Assembly (NCBI GenBank): GCA_905478335.1
Contig: CAJQIC010000003.1
Span: 1-36,784 of the forward strand
Direction of reading: 5' to 3'
Length of the DNA stretch: 36,784 nucleotides
Source: an uncultured Bacteroidia bacterium
Lineage (GTDB): Bacteria; Bacteroidota; Bacteroidia; NS11-12g; UBA9320
The position numbers were made by a program, and so were the translations under genes. The notes under the pieces were generated by a model, which was not told the DNA's origin, ran no database searches, and saw nothing but the letters and a program-made list of their open reading frames with translations. Within the stretch, counting starts at the first letter, position 1. Every line of letters starts with the position of its first letter. Of this stretch, positions 3,380 through 9,578 are shown piece after piece.

Positions 3380-3838
3380 TTATGCCTCTTTCTTTGCTTT
3401 TTCTGCCTTGAAGTATTGAAACGGAACCAACAACATACCGAAGCATTCACCATGCTCTTTACCTAAGTGCTTATGGTGTCTTTTATGTGCTCTTCTTATT
3501 GCTCTGAAGTAAATGTTATCACTATTTCTTAACCATTTGAAGCGCTGGTGAATAAACACATCGTGGACTAAAAAGTAACAAAAACCGTAGGCCATGATAC
3601 CAAAACCAATGGCCATCATTAAAGGAGAACTATTACTCGATCCCAACAAGAGTAATAACATGCTGGGTATGGCAAAAATTAAAAAGAATGCATCGTTTTT
3701 TTCGAAAAATGTTTTGTTGGTATGTGTGTGATGGTCCTCATGTAAGTTCCACAATAAACCATGCATCACAAATTTGTGTGTAAACCACGCAACAAACTCC
3801 ATAAAGAAAAATGTTCCGAAAAATGCAAGTACCATCAT
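3380..3838 (-). CDS. crtZ: Beta-carotene hydroxylase (CrtZ-type)
   Basis: A 152-residue membrane protein of the fatty acid hydroxylase/carotenoid hydroxylase superfamily. It has the expected histidine clusters for a di-iron site: HKFVMH (H21, H26), HEDHH (H33, H36, H37), HDVFIH (H92, H97) and HKRHHKH (H118, H121, H122). Hydrophobic helices separate them. CrtZ adds 3-hydroxyl groups to the beta-ionone rings of beta-carotene, giving zeaxanthin. It is the last gene of the crt operon; its ATG overlaps the stop codon of the preceding gene by one base (TAATG), so translation is probably coupled. A second ATG follows immediately. Length and motifs agree with bacterial CrtZ. Substrate specificity within the superfamily is inferred from the operon. 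Confidence 0.92.
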   Translation of the reverse strand: MMVLAFFGTFFFMEFVAWFTHKFVMHGLLWNLHEDHHTHTNKTFFEKNDAFFLIFAIPSMLLLLLGSSNSSPLMMAIGFGIMAYGFCYFLVHDVFIHQRFKWLRNSDNIYFRAIRRAHKRHHKHLGKEHGECFGMLLVPFQYFKAEKAKKEA

Positions 3839-4353
3839 TATTTTATGTTCGTTTGAACTGTTGTTAATTGTTCAATTTGTTTGGTGCTAATACCGTCGGA
3901 TGTTTTGAGGTTTTTGATAAATGACCTTTTCCAGTCTGCATCTATCACGTAGTCACCAATATTCTCTACAAATATCTTTAAATCTTGATCAATTTCACTA
4001 CTGTACCCAACCATTACAGGCGCATTGAGTTGCACCATTAGGCGTATGTAACGAATTTCAGGATTTAATGGAGCCGCCGTTATGGCTTCCTCAATCAACG
4101 CTTTACCATCGGTAAAATATTTCCATTTGGTGGTAGGCCAAGTAGCAAATTCTGCTGAGGTACAGGTTGCCAGTCCTTTATATGCCTTAGTGACTTGGTT
4201 TGTTGGATAAGTTTTAGACACGATTATTGCCTGCAACTTACATTCCGACTTCACGGCATCATGAAAGTCATCTCGTATGTGATTTAAGTTAACAGTAAAC
4301 GACAAAAGTGTCAGACCAATGGAAACGATAAGTGGAATTGCGCGCCTTTTCAT
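3838..4353 (-). CDS. Unknown exported protein within the crt operon
   Basis: A 171-residue protein lying between crtB and crtZ and joined to both by one-base TAATG overlaps. It begins MKRRAIPLIVSIGLTLLSFTV, a signal peptide or single membrane anchor; the rest is soluble and would face the periplasm. Two Cys residues occur in the mature part (SECKLQ, ATCTS). A central stretch, NPEIRYIRLMVQLNAPVMVGYSSEID near residue 100, looks like a conserved core, and I recall similar proteins near carotenoid genes of other Flavobacteria. It has no carotenoid-cyclase, desaturase or oxygenase motif. No function can be assigned; the tight coupling suggests a role in pigment formation or in placing pigment in the membrane. 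Confidence 0.8.
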   Translation of the reverse strand: MKRRAIPLIVSIGLTLLSFTVNLNHIRDDFHDAVKSECKLQAIIVSKTYPTNQVTKAYKGLATCTSAEFATWPTTKWKYFTDGKALIEEAITAAPLNPEIRYIRLMVQLNAPVMVGYSSEIDQDLKIFVENIGDYVIDADWKRSFIKNLKTSDGISTKQIEQLTTVQTNIK

Positions 4354-5201
4354 TATAACATGTTTAACCGTACGTTCATGTATGACTTGACCATCAAAGC
4401 AAGTTTCACATGGTCTTTCACTCTAATTCTTGTATCAAGTATTCGACTTGACGGTGTTCGTTTTAGCTTTTTGAGCAGTTGTTTGTAGTATTTGTACGCC
4501 GTATAAACGCCAAAACGCGCTGTTTGGGGTAGCTGGACAATGCCTACATAAGCCTCCTCAAAATCTTTTTCAATATCTGCAATGATCGCCGCTTTGTTAT
4601 CAGCACTTAGGTTATTAAAATCTACGTTGGGAAAATAACTTCGGTTTAACACCTCAGAATCTGCTTTAATGTCGCGCAGGAAATTCACTTTTTGAAAAGC
4701 CGACCCAAGCTTCATTGCGGATGGTTTTAAGTGACTGTAAAGCGCTTCATCTCCATTAACAAATATTTTCAAACACATTAAACCAACAACATCTGCCGAT
4801 CCATAGATGTATTTCTCGTATTCTTCCACAGATAGATAATCCAACTTGGTCAAATCCATTCGCATGCTAGACATAAATGATTTTACCAACTGTATGTCTA
4901 TGTTATACTGGTGTAGGGTGTCTTGAAAGGCATGTAAAACCGGATTCAAGCTAATTTTGTGAATAATCGCGTCATATAGGTCAGATTCAAACTTGTCAAA
5001 TAATGCTTCCTGATCATAGTCTAAAAACGAATCTACAATTTCATCTGCCAAGCGTACAAAGCCATAAATGTTGTGAATGTGAGATTGAATGCTTGGATCC
5101 AACATAGACACAGAGGAATAAAATGAAGTACTATACGCCTGCGTGACAGCCTGACTCGAAGTCTTGGCTAAGTCACTATATGTTTGCATGTTTGAGTTCA
5201 T
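4353..5201 (-). CDS. crtB: Phytoene synthase
   Basis: A 282-residue squalene/phytoene synthase family enzyme. The first Asp-rich motif is DEIVD (53-57), followed by the YIYGSADVVGLM helix (131-142) and the second Asp-rich motif NFLRDIKAD (173-181). These bind the diphosphates through magnesium. The enzyme joins two geranylgeranyl diphosphates into phytoene, the first committed step of carotenoid synthesis. The start overlaps the 3' end of crtI by 26 nt; Met1 or Met5 (MQTYSDLAKT) could be used, and both keep the overlap. The downstream gene starts inside the stop codon, so the three genes behave as one operon. Confidence 0.95.
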   Translation of the reverse strand: MNSNMQTYSDLAKTSSQAVTQAYSTSFYSSVSMLDPSIQSHIHNIYGFVRLADEIVDSFLDYDQEALFDKFESDLYDAIIHKISLNPVLHAFQDTLHQYNIDIQLVKSFMSSMRMDLTKLDYLSVEEYEKYIYGSADVVGLMCLKIFVNGDEALYSHLKPSAMKLGSAFQKVNFLRDIKADSEVLNRSYFPNVDFNNLSADNKAAIIADIEKDFEEAYVGIVQLPQTARFGVYTAYKYYKQLLKKLKRTPSSRILDTRIRVKDHVKLALMVKSYMNVRLNML

Positions 5202-6660
5202 GTTTAACGTTTTTTAATATTTGATTAGCGGATATTTTACCTGAAATAAGTGCTGGTGGTACACCTGGTCCAGGAACGGTCAACTGGCCTGTAAAAAACA
5301 GGTGGTCGACTTTTTTACTTTTTATTTTCGGTCGCAAGAACGCCGTTTGTTTTAGCGTATTTGCCATTCCATAGGCATTACCCTTGTAAGAATTGTATTG
5401 ACTTTTAAAATCATCTACACAAAACGATTTGTTGTAGATCACGTGTTCTTTTAATGATTGGTTGGTTAAAGTCTCCAAACGACTCATCACTAAGTCGAAG
5501 TAGTGTTGGCGACGCTCTTCTGAATCTTCTATTCCAGGTGCCAAAGGAATTAAGAAAAATGCATTTTCTTTTCCTTCTGGTGCAACAGATGGATCAGTAA
5601 TACTTGGGAAACACGTATAAAACAAAGGATCATCTGGCCAACTTGGTGTATCGTAAATCTGCACTGCATGTTGATCAAAGTCTTCATCGAAAAACAAGTT
5701 GTGATGACGTACGTTGTAAAGTTTCTTATCAAACCCAACATAAAATATTAGCGCAGAAGGCGCAAACGTTCTTGAAGCCCAATAATCCTCGGTGTACATT
5801 CTACTATCAGGATTAAGCAATTGCTCTGTGTGGTGATAGTCCGCACCGCTGAGAACGATATCACTGTACTCTACCAAGCCATTAATTCTTAATCCGACTG
5901 CTGTGTTGTCAGACGTAATGATTTCTTCTATTTGGGCATTTGTGTGGTAATTTACACCTAACTCCTTGCCCAGTTCTATCATACCTTCTACAATTTTATA
6001 CATCCCTCCCATCGGGTACCAAGTACCGAGAACGAGGTCGGCATAGTTCATAAAATTATAAAAAGCTGGCGTGTTCTCAGGTTTTGCTCCGAGAAATAGC
6101 ACAGGAAATTCTAATATTTTAATGAGTTTAGGATTGGTAAAATCCCTTCGAATGGCTGACCGAACAGTAGAAAAAAATTGGTTTACACGTGTTACGGTTT
6201 GAGGGGTAACTAATTCTAAAATAGAGTTTCCTGGTCTGTACACCAGCTCGTCCATTGAAGCCTTGTAATTAAAAGCCGCGCTGTTTATAAACTTTTCAAG
6301 ATTGGAAGCGGATCCAGGTTCGATAGAATCAAACAAGGTATATATGTCCTCAATAGATCCAGGTATCTCTACCGTTTCGTTGTCTTCAAAAAACACCTTG
6401 TATGCCGGGTTCAACCGAACCAATTCGTAATAATCTGAAGTCTTCTTTCCAAAATCGTGGAAAAAACGCTCAAATATATCTGGCATCCAATACCAGCTTG
6501 GTCCCATATCAAAAGTGAATCCGTCTTGCTGGAAAGCACGTGCTCTACCGCCTAACGAATCATTCTTTTCGTATACATCAACTGAATATCCCGCTTTTGC
6601 TAAGTAGCAAGCTGCAGACAAAGAAGAAAACCCAGAACCGATTATTTGTACGTTTTTCAT
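5176..6660 (-). CDS. crtI: Phytoene desaturase
   Basis: A CrtI-type FAD amine-oxidase-fold desaturase of 494 residues. The N-terminal dinucleotide-binding signature is IIGSGFSSLSAACYLAKAGY, with the acidic YEKN after the second strand and SLGGRA next. The C-terminal signature FFTGQLTVPGPGVPPALISG is typical of carotenoid desaturases. I place the start at the ATG at 6660 (MKNVQIIGSG) rather than a further Met six codons upstream, because the extra MICLNK is not expected before the Rossmann strand. It converts phytoene stepwise to neurosporene or lycopene; the number of steps cannot be read from the sequence. It is preceded by 48 nt containing paired TTGTTTAA/TTAAACAA sites next to the CarH-like regulator gene. 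Confidence 0.95.
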   Translation of the reverse strand: MKNVQIIGSGFSSLSAACYLAKAGYSVDVYEKNDSLGGRARAFQQDGFTFDMGPSWYWMPDIFERFFHDFGKKTSDYYELVRLNPAYKVFFEDNETVEIPGSIEDIYTLFDSIEPGSASNLEKFINSAAFNYKASMDELVYRPGNSILELVTPQTVTRVNQFFSTVRSAIRRDFTNPKLIKILEFPVLFLGAKPENTPAFYNFMNYADLVLGTWYPMGGMYKIVEGMIELGKELGVNYHTNAQIEEIITSDNTAVGLRINGLVEYSDIVLSGADYHHTEQLLNPDSRMYTEDYWASRTFAPSALIFYVGFDKKLYNVRHHNLFFDEDFDQHAVQIYDTPSWPDDPLFYTCFPSITDPSVAPEGKENAFFLIPLAPGIEDSEERRQHYFDLVMSRLETLTNQSLKEHVIYNKSFCVDDFKSQYNSYKGNAYGMANTLKQTAFLRPKIKSKKVDHLFFTGQLTVPGPGVPPALISGKISANQILKNVKHELKHANI

Positions 6661-6661
6661 T

Positions 6662-6693
6662 TTGTTTAAGCAAATCAACTAATTGTTAAACAA
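6662..6693. promoter_or_regulatory. Inverted TTGTTTAA / TTAAACAA pair before crtI
   Basis: In the 48-nt gap between carH and crtI, TTGTTTAA (6662-6669) and its exact reverse complement TTAAACAA (6686-6693) flank a minus-strand TTGATTTG (6671-6678), which matches 7 of 8 bases of the -7 consensus. The second arm is part of the 11-bp palindrome TTGTTAAACAA (6683-6693). The same pair of words occurs upstream of the regulator gene. I infer an operator for the CarH-like protein over a crtI promoter; no footprint data are implied. Confidence 0.45.
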
Positions 6694-6708: not shown

Positions 6709-7602
6709 TTACATTTTGTTTATCATTTCGTCTAAATCGTTAAACAATTCAACGTTTTTGATATCAAAGCTTCTGTCCCTAACGTTTCTACCTGTTACCC
6801 AAAAGGCATCATCACGACCTTGTAGCAAGGTACGATAAAAATAGGTAAGGTAGCGTTCGACCTCTTCAGATACAGGCCTAACAGTGAAGTAACTAACAAA
6901 AGTAATTTTCTTACACACCAGCTGAATCGCCTTAAGATTGTCTAACGGTACACTTTGACCAAGATAGATTACATGGCCACCACGTAACAACAATTCATAA
7001 TGCATGTAGAGCAGCCCCAATTCATGAATTTCATTGTCTGGGAGAAACAATACGTACACAGCGTCATCGGTTTTAGGCACCGTTTGCTGTACACGTTCAA
7101 TACTGATTTGAAGCTTCTGCTTGATTAAATTCGATATGAAGTGTTCATGAGCCGGTGTAATGCTGTCACTCTGCCAATGGATTCCAATTTGATGCAAAAG
7201 TGGAACAAACACTTCTAAAAATACATGACGGAAAGAGAACTCAGCAATGAGCCTATTAAACGTTTGTTCAAAGTGATTCTGATCAAAATTTAACATGGAC
7301 AACACCAAGGCATCCATGTACCCCGAGTGGTCTCCCCCTTTAGAAATTTGATCCATTACTGCCTGACCGAGATCGCCATCATCAAGCTGCGCAATCTTAG
7401 AAATCTTATAACCATTTTTGTATAGTAAGGTTACGTTTAAAAGCTTTTTTAAACTATCGGCATTGTACAGCCTAATGTTTGAATCCGTTCTGTTTGGATT
7501 TAACACACTGTATCGCTTTTCCCACATCCGAATCGTGTGGGCTTTAATTCCTGAAAGATTTTCTAGATCTTTTATCGTAAAGCTTGATGCTATATTGTTC
7601 AA
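6709..7602 (-). CDS. carH: MerR-family B12-binding regulator, CarH/LitR-like photoreceptor
   Basis: A 297-residue protein with three parts. Residues 8-75 form a MerR winged helix (TIKDLENLSGIKAHTIRMWEKRY). About 95-170 is the four-helix cap carrying the CarH motif W-x9-E-H (W143, E153, H154). About 180-290 is a cobalamin-binding Rossmann domain with E-x-H-x-x-G (E191, H193, G196). In known CarH proteins adenosylcobalamin bound this way makes a tetramer that represses carotenoid genes in the dark; light breaks the Co-C bond and releases DNA. The residue after W143 is Gln; in Thermus CarH I recall a His there that ligates cobalt after photolysis, while here a His precedes the Trp (H142). The only plausible start is TTG at 7602, since the next Met (26) would delete half the HTH. 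Its position directly before crtI supports the role. Confidence 0.85.
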   Translation of the reverse strand: MNNIASSFTIKDLENLSGIKAHTIRMWEKRYSVLNPNRTDSNIRLYNADSLKKLLNVTLLYKNGYKISKIAQLDDGDLGQAVMDQISKGGDHSGYMDALVLSMLNFDQNHFEQTFNRLIAEFSFRHVFLEVFVPLLHQIGIHWQSDSITPAHEHFISNLIKQKLQISIERVQQTVPKTDDAVYVLFLPDNEIHELGLLYMHYELLLRGGHVIYLGQSVPLDNLKAIQLVCKKITFVSYFTVRPVSEEVERYLTYFYRTLLQGRDDAFWVTGRNVRDRSFDIKNVELFNDLDEMINKM

Positions 7603-7619
7603 CTTTAATACACCTTTAG

Positions 7620-7660
7620 TTAAACAAATCTAACACTTTAAATCTAAAAAGGTTGTTTAA
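7620..7660. promoter_or_regulatory. TTAAACAA / TTGTTTAA pair before carH
   Basis: TTAAACAA (7620-7627) and TTGTTTAA (7653-7660) lie upstream of the carH-like gene. The first overlaps the minus-strand -7 element TAGATTTG (7625-7632), an exact TAnnTTTG match; the second lies in the 3' end of the upstream membrane-protein gene. The same words flank the -7-like box of crtI, so this is a candidate autoregulatory operator. Confidence 0.42.
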
Positions 7661-8171
7661 GATTTTGAGATAAGCGTTTTATCGCTACAATGTGACCAAA
7701 AATAACAACAGGTACGATGATGCCTGGAAGCCAAACAAATGGAAAGTGGAGGATACCAGTATTGGGCATATCAAAGGCCAATTGCTGGAAAGGACTCGGT
7801 GCAGAAAATATGCCTGTAATTACCACCTGGCTGACCATTAATAGGCAAACCCAGTTCCAAATGAGTAGCCAACGCTTGCTTATTTTTCCCTTATTCCAGC
7901 CAAAGTATGCAATGAACGGAGCAGTCAAACCTGCAAGTATATCGAAGTTACGACCGCTAAAAGTCATTGACTCTGGCACCAAATGGTATACAAATAAATA
8001 ATACAGAACAATTTCGACACCAATACGCACAGAATGTAGGTAGGTGTAGGTCTCTAAATTAAAATTGGCAATCAGTCTTTTGCCAGACTTAGTGAGAAAA
8101 GCAATTAAAATGCACACCACACTAGGAAGCAGTATGAACATAATTCTTGGAGGAAATGCGTCGGTATCCAA
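7644..8171 (-). pseudogene. Multi-TM membrane protein, C-terminal part after a frameshift
   Basis: This frame encodes about 175 residues with several hydrophobic helices and the segments FPPRIMFILLPS, LHSVRIGVEIVLYYLF, MTFSGRNFDILAGLTAPF and FQQLAFDMPNTGILHFPFVWLPGI. I recognise these as belonging to a conserved Bacteroidota membrane protein family of unknown function. The only possible start is an unlikely TTG. The missing N-terminal helices are encoded in another frame just upstream (8105-8329). Adding one T to the run at 8170-8173 on the coding strand would join them as ...GFFLDTDAFPPR..., which fits the family as I remember it. It is either a broken gene or a sequencing error. It sits between the reductase-like gene and carH in the same direction. 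Confidence 0.6.
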
Positions 8172-8339: not shown

Positions 8340-9578
8340 TCAACGATTAAACAAAAGTCTGAAGTAGAATCTAGGATCTCTAAATTTCTTCCGCAGATCT
8401 ACATTTTCAAACATCGAAGTTAAAAGTATTTTGAATTCTTTACTTTTTGCGCCCTTGTTTGCTACAAAATTGAACAACCATGGATACTTAACCATTTTCT
8501 GAAGTTTATGGCTCATGTTCAGCTCGGGCCATAGGTGATGGTATACCCTGTCTGTATAGGCATTCAACCTTGAGCGTGAAAAGTCGTTTCGGGCAACTGC
8601 CTCCACAATAACATCACTGGCATACTTGGCGCTAATCATGGCATTACCTATACCCTCTCCTGTAAACGGGTCAATGATTGAAGCAGCGTCGCCGCAAAAC
8701 AGTAGTCTATCAAAATGTAACTGTCGTTTTTTGGAACCTAAGGGTAAACCCCACCCTTTAACAGATTCTACAGGCTTTGCATTTTTAAACCGCTTGCTAA
8801 TTACAGGATGCTCCTCAATAATTTTGTTCATCAGCTCCTTCAAGTTGACCTTATCCTTTGATACACTTGCACTTAGCATGCCTATTCCCACATTCACACG
8901 ACCATTCGTCATGGGGAAAATCCAAAAATAACCTGGTAGCACATCGTTGATGAAATGTAATTCGATATACCCTTCATCACTCAAACCCTCAACGCCTTCA
9001 TAATACCTCCGCAAACCGGCACAGTAATGATTTAGTTCCATTTCTATGCCGTTGTCTTTGGCTAGATCAGAACGAACACCAGAGCAGTCCACTACAATGT
9101 CTGCAGTAAAAGAATGGATCTCGTCAATTTCTATAAAGACTCTGTTTGGGGTTATTTGGGTGGATTTAACCTCAGAACCAAACATCGCTGTGCAATAAGG
9201 GCTGATCGTATTCTCAACCAACAAATTATCAAAGTCGCTACGTGTTGCGATAAACCCAGGCGCTTGTTTTTGATTCGTTTTATCGGTTGTAAACGGGATG
9301 TCTAATTGCTTGCCATTGGGGGCAACGAAGGTGATTCCCCAACTTGGTAAATAGTCTTGTTCCTTTGCTACTATTTGGTCTACCACATCAGGTTTGACAC
9401 GATTTAGCGCGTAAACGACCTTTCCGCTGAGCGCATCTCCACAAATCTTGTCGCGTGGAAATGTCGCTTTATCAATCAATACATGTTCGATTTTGTTTTT
9501 AGTTAAGCCCATGGAAAGCGCTGAGCCAGCTGGGCCCGCTCCTATGATGGCAACTTTTACATGTTTTGATTTCGGCAA
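8340..9578 (-). CDS. Geranylgeranyl-reductase-family FAD oxidoreductase
   Basis: A 412-residue flavoprotein of the geranylgeranyl reductase/p-hydroxybenzoate hydroxylase fold. It shows the N-terminal FAD motif GAGPAG (13-18), then DKATFPRDKICGDALSG with the conserved R-x-K-x-CGD, the PGYFWIFP motif near residue 240 and the second FAD motif CGDAASIIDPFTGEGI near 295-309. Family members reduce double bonds of isoprenoid chains, or halogenate or hydroxylate other substrates. Its place upstream of the crt genes suggests an isoprenoid substrate, but this is inference. The start is TTG at 9578: a TAA stop lies two codons upstream, and the FAD motif begins only 13 residues in, so a later start would destroy it. 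A CAACTTTG (7 of 8 to the -7 consensus) lies about 20 nt upstream. Confidence 0.82.
   Translation of the reverse strand: MPKSKHVKVAIIGAGPAGSALSMGLTKNKIEHVLIDKATFPRDKICGDALSGKVVYALNRVKPDVVDQIVAKEQDYLPSWGITFVAPNGKQLDIPFTTDKTNQKQAPGFIATRSDFDNLLVENTISPYCTAMFGSEVKSTQITPNRVFIEIDEIHSFTADIVVDCSGVRSDLAKDNGIEMELNHYCAGLRRYYEGVEGLSDEGYIELHFINDVLPGYFWIFPMTNGRVNVGIGMLSASVSKDKVNLKELMNKIIEEHPVISKRFKNAKPVESVKGWGLPLGSKKRQLHFDRLLFCGDAASIIDPFTGEGIGNAMISAKYASDVIVEAVARNDFSRSRLNAYTDRVYHHLWPELNMSHKLQKMVKYPWLFNFVANKGAKSKEFKILLTSMFENVDLRKKFRDPRFYFRLLFNR

Follow-up and report, generated by a model that had tools for sequence, protein, structure and literature searches.

The window analysed here, a stretch of 36,784 nucleotides from an uncultured Bacteroidia bacterium, carries beside a carotenoid (crt) cluster a gene for a MerR-type protein that resembles the B12 photoreceptor CarH of Thermus thermophilus (TtCarH) and has a glutamine in place of its His132. 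This raises the question of whether such a protein could act as a light switch, and over which genes. Taking together the sequence motifs, the predicted fold, the putative operator described below, the statistical association of this site with CarH and its position before opsin genes, we estimate at about three in four the probability that the protein is a CarH-type, AdoCbl-dependent MerR repressor that would be released by light and would couple carotenoid, retinal and opsin synthesis.

The carH-like gene and its neighbourhood

The features of the locus are as follows.

3380..3838, minus strand: crtZ-like hydroxylase (PF04116)
3838..4353, minus strand: 171-aa protein without Pfam match, in the crtB-crtZ interval
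4353..5201, minus strand: crtB-like phytoene synthase (PF00494)
5176..6678, minus strand: crtI-like phytoene desaturase (Pfam), likely ATG at 6660
6662..6693: putative operator O2 between carH and crtI, exact TTGTTTAA-N16-TTAAACAA
6709..7602, minus strand: carH-like gene, 297 aa, TTG start, Q144 at the TtCarH His132 position
6716..6747: possible second operator over the carH 3' end, one mismatch, a single site and weaker evidence
7595..7627: putative operator O1 of the carH promoter, TTGTTTAA-N17-TTGAACAA on the minus strand, its right half overlapping the TTG start codon
7625..7632, minus strand: TAGATTTG, matching the -7 box of Bacteroidota (TAnnTTTG) and joined directly to the left half of O1

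A crtI homologue is present in 78/80 related carH loci and homologues of the 171-aa protein in 9/80; in Chryseobacterium lacus, whose crt cluster is induced by light, a hypothetical protein occupies the same crtB-crtZ slot (PMC7064467, accessible text). Upstream of carH and in the same direction, the window encodes a 175-aa membrane protein (7644-8171) and a geranylgeranyl-reductase-like FAD enzyme (8340-9578), each with homologues in 3/80 related loci.

Domains and cobalamin motifs

The protein consists of a MerR DNA-binding domain followed by a four-helix/Rossmann B12-binding domain. Pfam returned MerR_1 (PF13411, 8.7e-13) and B12-binding_2 (PF02607, 1e-9), with no match to the PF02310 profile, and the top phmmer matches among solved structures are TtCarH. 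The AlphaFold model, built from 44 aligned sequences with a mean pLDDT of 87.6, has full-length TtCarH (5c8d/5c8e) as its best Foldseek match in the PDB (E about 1e-14), so that PF02607 and the model both indicate the four-helix and Rossmann cobalamin-binding domain. The RxWE(R/K)RY recognition helix of MerR winged-helix proteins reads IRMWEKRY, and its residues R25, W27, E28 and R30 are invariant in the homologue comparison.

Two sets of homologues were compared, the first comprising 80 relatives kept of 395 together with the window protein (81 sequences), and the second 89 class-sample CarH loci of 206 matches (29 best-scoring and 60 picked for family spread). The preliminary description of this locus had reported both cobalamin motifs as intact, and we find the adenosyl-binding motif Wx9EH as W143-x9-E153-H154 and the lower-ligand motif (D/E)xHx2G as E191-I-H193-E-L-G196. 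W143, E153 and E191/H193/G196 are each present in 81/81 sequences of the first set, and among the Bacteroidia homologues the Trp, E153 and the lower His are each kept in 168/169. The conservation within the first set, with Q144 in 80/81 sequences and a crtI neighbour at 78/80 loci, goes beyond chance. For the rest of the B12 motif (SxT/V, GG), S237, T240 and G271 are present and the second Gly is Arg272, at a position that varies across the group. The strict GxxH signature of SignatureFinder (PMC11796333) reads N-E-I-H (N190), and a strict search would likely miss this protein; we did not count this against B12 binding because the contacts at that position are described, in the accessible text of the same source, as main-chain. 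By its sequence the product is a CarH-like MerR/B12-binding protein, for which AdoCbl binding is predicted.

Residue 154, the second member of the E-H pair, is Gln rather than His in seven of the collected loci (L058, L069, L071, L074, L077, L080 and L222), mostly from Psychroflexus/Mesohalobacter, with W, E and the lower His retained. A homologue on a Persicobacter plasmid (L383:3001-3870) keeps W-H and has lost both E-H and the lower-ligand His, as if it were B12-independent.

Residue 144 and the light state

The glutamine that had been read after the Trp, where Thermus CarH has His, is aligned to TtCarH His132 by both phmmer and MAFFT. Position 144 is Gln in 80/81 sequences of the first set and Met in 1/81, and in the 89 class-sample loci it is Gln in 52, Leu in 14, Ser in 5, Met in 4, Gly in 4, Arg in 3, Ile in 3, Val in 2, His in 1 and Thr in 1. 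The alignment of Bacteroidota homologues around the motif, proposed earlier as a check, thus shows a residue other than His in 168/169 and His in 1/169, and from the counts in both sets the lack of the bis-His residue is, at the level of sequence, the rule in Bacteroidia.

Gln144 is a known kind of variation, already in print. The residue at the 132 position is Arg in CtMerR, Gln in SasPcob and Tyr in AbDPcob according to the accessible text of PMC11796333, and His is found in many, not all, myxobacterial CarH proteins (PMC9304148, available portion), so that the trait is not strictly defining. The photocobilin SasPcob forms an aquo/hydroxo light state and no bis-His state (PMC10979010). For TtCarH itself, the available part of PMC10442372 reports that the H132A variant was mostly still tetrameric, contradicting an earlier study, and that its light-state spectrum was of the aquo/hydroxo type (at 352 nm instead of 359 nm). 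Given the Gln that replaces His132, the window protein would most likely have as its light state aquo/hydroxo-Co(III) with His193 retained below, as in SasPcob, and not bis-His. The B12 domains of SasPcob and CtMerR resemble that of the window protein in their non-His residue, and the light cleavage of AdoCbl that they undergo is proposed here too; they differ in that SasPcob has a bilin domain and CtMerR has Arg.

Both the CarH type and the carotenoid control put forward in the preliminary description are supported, but its suggestion that H142 might stand in for the missing ligand is not: the residue is there as described, yet the position is His in just 3/81 sequences and Leu in 74/81, and we rejected it as a replacement. 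If there is a compensating His at all, H152, in the A-H-E-H stretch beside E153-H154, may be the better candidate for a ligand. A B12 photoreceptor in which H152 replaces His132, and which reaches a bis-His state after all, would fit the retention of this His in 95/97 close homologues. Only 20/72 distant homologues have it, however, and 49/72 have Gln there while keeping Wx9EH, mostly without His144; as the Gln-bearing SasPcob also manages without a bis-His state (PMC10979010), we find this unlikely.

A second alternative is that the protein works like CarA or class II LitR, on the same operator but independently of B12, with a partner protein sensing the light and a vestigial B12 pocket. Regulators of these types do work so (PMC9304148, PMC9758184, accessible portions), and the degenerate 'GG' and the silent PF02310 profile point the same way. 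Wx9EH and ExH are nevertheless nearly invariant (W, E153 and the lower His in 168/169 each); in CarA, by contrast, the Trp and neighbouring residues are gone, and neither of the traits of that group, loss of the Wx9EH Trp or absence of a Rossmann domain, was found in this protein, where a Rossmann domain is predicted. We regard this alternative as decidedly improbable, and favour a light-released repressor that uses AdoCbl. Bacteroidia CarH would then provide a large natural family whose B12 light switch operates, or does not, in the absence of a bis-His ligand, and it bears on the published dispute as to whether the tetramer can dissociate without His132 (PMC10442372, available part).

A putative inverted operator at carH promoters

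When the upstream regions (150 bp) of 81 carH genes were read by eye, a recurrent TTTGTTTAA ... TTRAACAA was noticed. It corresponds to the palindrome TTGTTTAA-N16-TTAAACAA, in which each half includes TnnACA, the CarH core. Among convergent half-site pairs within 40 bp in all carH loci, the spacing is N16 in 63/76, N17 in 7/76 and another in 6/76. A site matching at least 14/16 positions lies upstream of carH in 64/80 relatives against 0.33 expected, and in 29/89 class-sample loci against 0.2 expected (single-base shuffles, as for the opsins below); controls with wrong spacing gave 1-7 sites. The pattern was derived from the carH upstream regions before the class-sample search, with a few species possibly in both sets. 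At positions that the search pattern left unfixed, 153 distinct N16 sites have T in 73-75% at the two bases outside each half, and C or T in 81% at the first inner base. The -7 box TAnnTTTG is fused to a half-site at 50/64 of the relatives' carH sites and 13/29 of the class-sample sites.

Published designs are 11-bp direct repeats for CarH, with repeat core TnnACA (PMC9304148, accessible text), and TGTACA-N12-TGTACA for class II LitR of Pseudomonas (PMC9758184, accessible text); the inverted N16 operator is therefore, judged by sequence, a variant of these CarH/LitR designs. Tandem direct repeats of the form nnnnTnnACAn, a trait reported as plastic and not strictly defining, are not the design seen here, and TtCarH-type 11-bp direct repeats were rejected, direct repeats of the half-site being almost absent from the carH loci. 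The window protein is like TtCarH in domain order, Wx9EH, ExHxxG, predicted fold and crt neighbourhood. It differs from TtCarH in sequence (23% identity), in Gln for His132, in an inverted N16 operator instead of three 11-bp direct repeats, and in predicted targets that include opsin. MliR of Bizionia was set aside as a comparison, being a MerR-like iron regulator with cobalamin unmentioned in the accessible text of PMC9478572.

Association with CarH across the class

The class sample comprised 296 Bacteroidia genomes, 198 CarH-positive and 98 CarH-negative, with eight weak matches (E > 1e-20) counted as negative. The exact N16 site occurs in 116/198 CarH-positive versus 2/98 CarH-negative genomes (Fisher 5.8e-25), an association partly due to sites adjoining carH itself, and is absent from 82/198 CarH-positive genomes. 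There are 182 such sites in CarH-positive genomes and 2 in CarH-negative ones; the reversed control gave a total of five. In the 20 families that contain both kinds of genome, 55/100 CarH-positive and 2/43 CarH-negative genomes have the site (permutation p 1e-5).

Sites before opsin genes

Light-stimulated growth is known from proteorhodopsin-bearing flavobacteria. In the open literature searched we found no named regulator of the opsin gene in these bacteria, and no paper tying CarH/LitR or MerR to proteorhodopsin. CarH and proteorhodopsin are both mentioned, unconnected, in the accessible text of PMC9614035 and PMC12627116, and that of PMC3587595 deals with matches to promoters of sigma factors and with no regulator of the CarH type. 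Genome announcements of opsin-bearing flavobacteria describe a MerR gene by crtI (PMC5887021, PMC4732338), in the same position as here and very likely of the same family; their available text neither assigns it a B12, light or operator role nor connects it with the opsin promoter.

A search of the window's own genome for TTGTTYAA-N14..20-TTRAACAA gave three sites, with spacers of 15-17, and none in the reversed control. Two are the carH (7595-7627) and crtI (6662-6693) promoters, and the third, on another contig outside the window (C17:82060-82090), lies 52 bp before a gene for a 247-aa opsin (PF01036). This opsin keeps what we take to be the proteorhodopsin D-T-E residues, with Met at the presumed spectral position. 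It is followed by the gene of a 310-aa Blh-like protein, a family assigned by reading; a protein at a different palindrome site matched PF15461 (Blh). N16 sites with one mismatch occur at four further places; a fasciclin-like gene starts 43 bp from one of them and an SDR-like gene adjoins another (names by reading). A strict N16 search of this genome with up to three mismatches gave no excess (88 versus 100 in the reversed control), and we therefore kept to sites with no more than one mismatch.

Opsin homologues are present in 67/296 genomes of the class sample, all CarH-positive (Fisher 3.4e-14, not corrected for kinship). A site of at least 14/16 with spacing 15-17 lies upstream of 38/65 opsins versus 0.19 expected from shuffles; wrong-spacing controls gave 2-5 and the scores are bimodal. 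In these counts L115 was left out, having been found through the motif, and L319 was kept as a miss, although it has a partial opsin match only and its 'upstream' is no true promoter; 27/65 opsin upstream regions are without a site. In L115, Psychroflexus salarius, the opsin and blh-like genes are divergently oriented, with one site between them. A CarH-type operator before opsin and blh makes opsin regulation directly testable.

It could be that the opsin sites are bound while CarH is an activator or a minor player in opsin expression, since the operator is placed differently relative to the -7 box, which is fused to a half-site in just 1/37 opsin promoters in contrast to carH. Against this, the CarH/LitR homologues in the papers cited repress, and many of the sites before opsins are no more than about 100 bp from the start. 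We therefore consider it improbable and retain repression as the preferred mode of action.

Proposed mechanism and B12 supply

By analogy with CarH relatives, we infer AdoCbl binding, DNA binding, repression and light release, as well as the ligand state given above. In the dark, an AdoCbl-bound oligomer would sit on the palindrome and keep the promoters closed; green or blue light would cleave the Co-C bond and the oligomer would be lost, and in the light the carotenoid, retinal and opsin genes and carH would open together. Counted against this repressor reading are the Arg for the second Gly of 'GG', the silent PF02310, the inverted operator, the opsins and CarH-positive genomes without a site, the unfused opsin -7 box and the lack of excess at up to three mismatches. 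Extended to the class, it appears on balance probable that retinal phototrophy in Bacteroidia is switched on, at the level of transcription, by a B12 photoreceptor that lacks the bis-His switch, and that a single operator, TTTTGTTTAAY-N14-RTTAAACAAAA, makes the synthesis of carotenoids, retinal (blh) and proteorhodopsin depend on light and, through it, on the supply of B12. If true, this would tie phototrophy to vitamin B12, which many proteorhodopsin flavobacteria probably must import.

The window's own genome has a PduO-type adenosyltransferase, MetH and two further B12-binding enzymes, read as mutases, with no match to the BtuR family. Adenosyltransferase is present in 197/198 CarH-positive and 90/98 CarH-negative genomes, a distribution compatible with an AdoCbl-dependent CarH and, being near-universal, not discriminating. 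Colonies of a Bacteroidota strain, Chryseobacterium lacus, are white in the dark and yellow in the light, with light-induced crt genes and an unknown regulator according to the accessible text of PMC7064467, which is in line with the CarH idea and no test of it.

Other genes beside the sites

Beside 165 distinct sites we collected 207 genes, one representative of each group being Pfam-scanned; the carH and opsin counts among them are inflated, some loci having been fetched for those genes. The groups include crtI (23), fasciclin (17), DUF2911, PTPS and TonB-plug (6 each), TetR_C_23 (5), FolE and flavin reductase (4 each), and photolyase and Blh (3 each). A further group of 12 without Pfam match is presumably SRPBCC-like. 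The photolyase, FolE, PTPS, flavin reductase and Blh neighbours count in favour of the CarH reading, and the targets of Pseudomonas LitR include PhrB, CryB and FolE. The Pseudomonas class II LitR proteins PplR/PmlR2 are MerR light repressors, as is proposed here, with photolyase and FolE targets and paired TnnACA-type half-sites; they differ in having no Rossmann B12 domain, in using a LOV protein and in their N12 spacing.

That the palindrome belongs to another regulator co-occurring with CarH, such as the TetR_C_23 protein at five of the 207 genes or a second MerR protein, would suit a design so unlike the classic CarH direct repeats, but it is very improbable, as the palindrome lies at the carH promoter itself, contains TnnACA and tracks CarH presence within families.

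The commonest neighbour of the palindrome in the class is an ECF sigma factor gene (29/207; L107, L141, L203, L298-L300 and others), which suggests that in many relatives CarH stands above a sigma cascade. No such gene was present at the sites looked at in the window's own genome. In the betaproteobacterium Eleftheria terrae (L382:2421-3897), the gene of a CarH homologue and one with a fasciclin domain are divergently oriented, an association as at the Bacteroidota sites.
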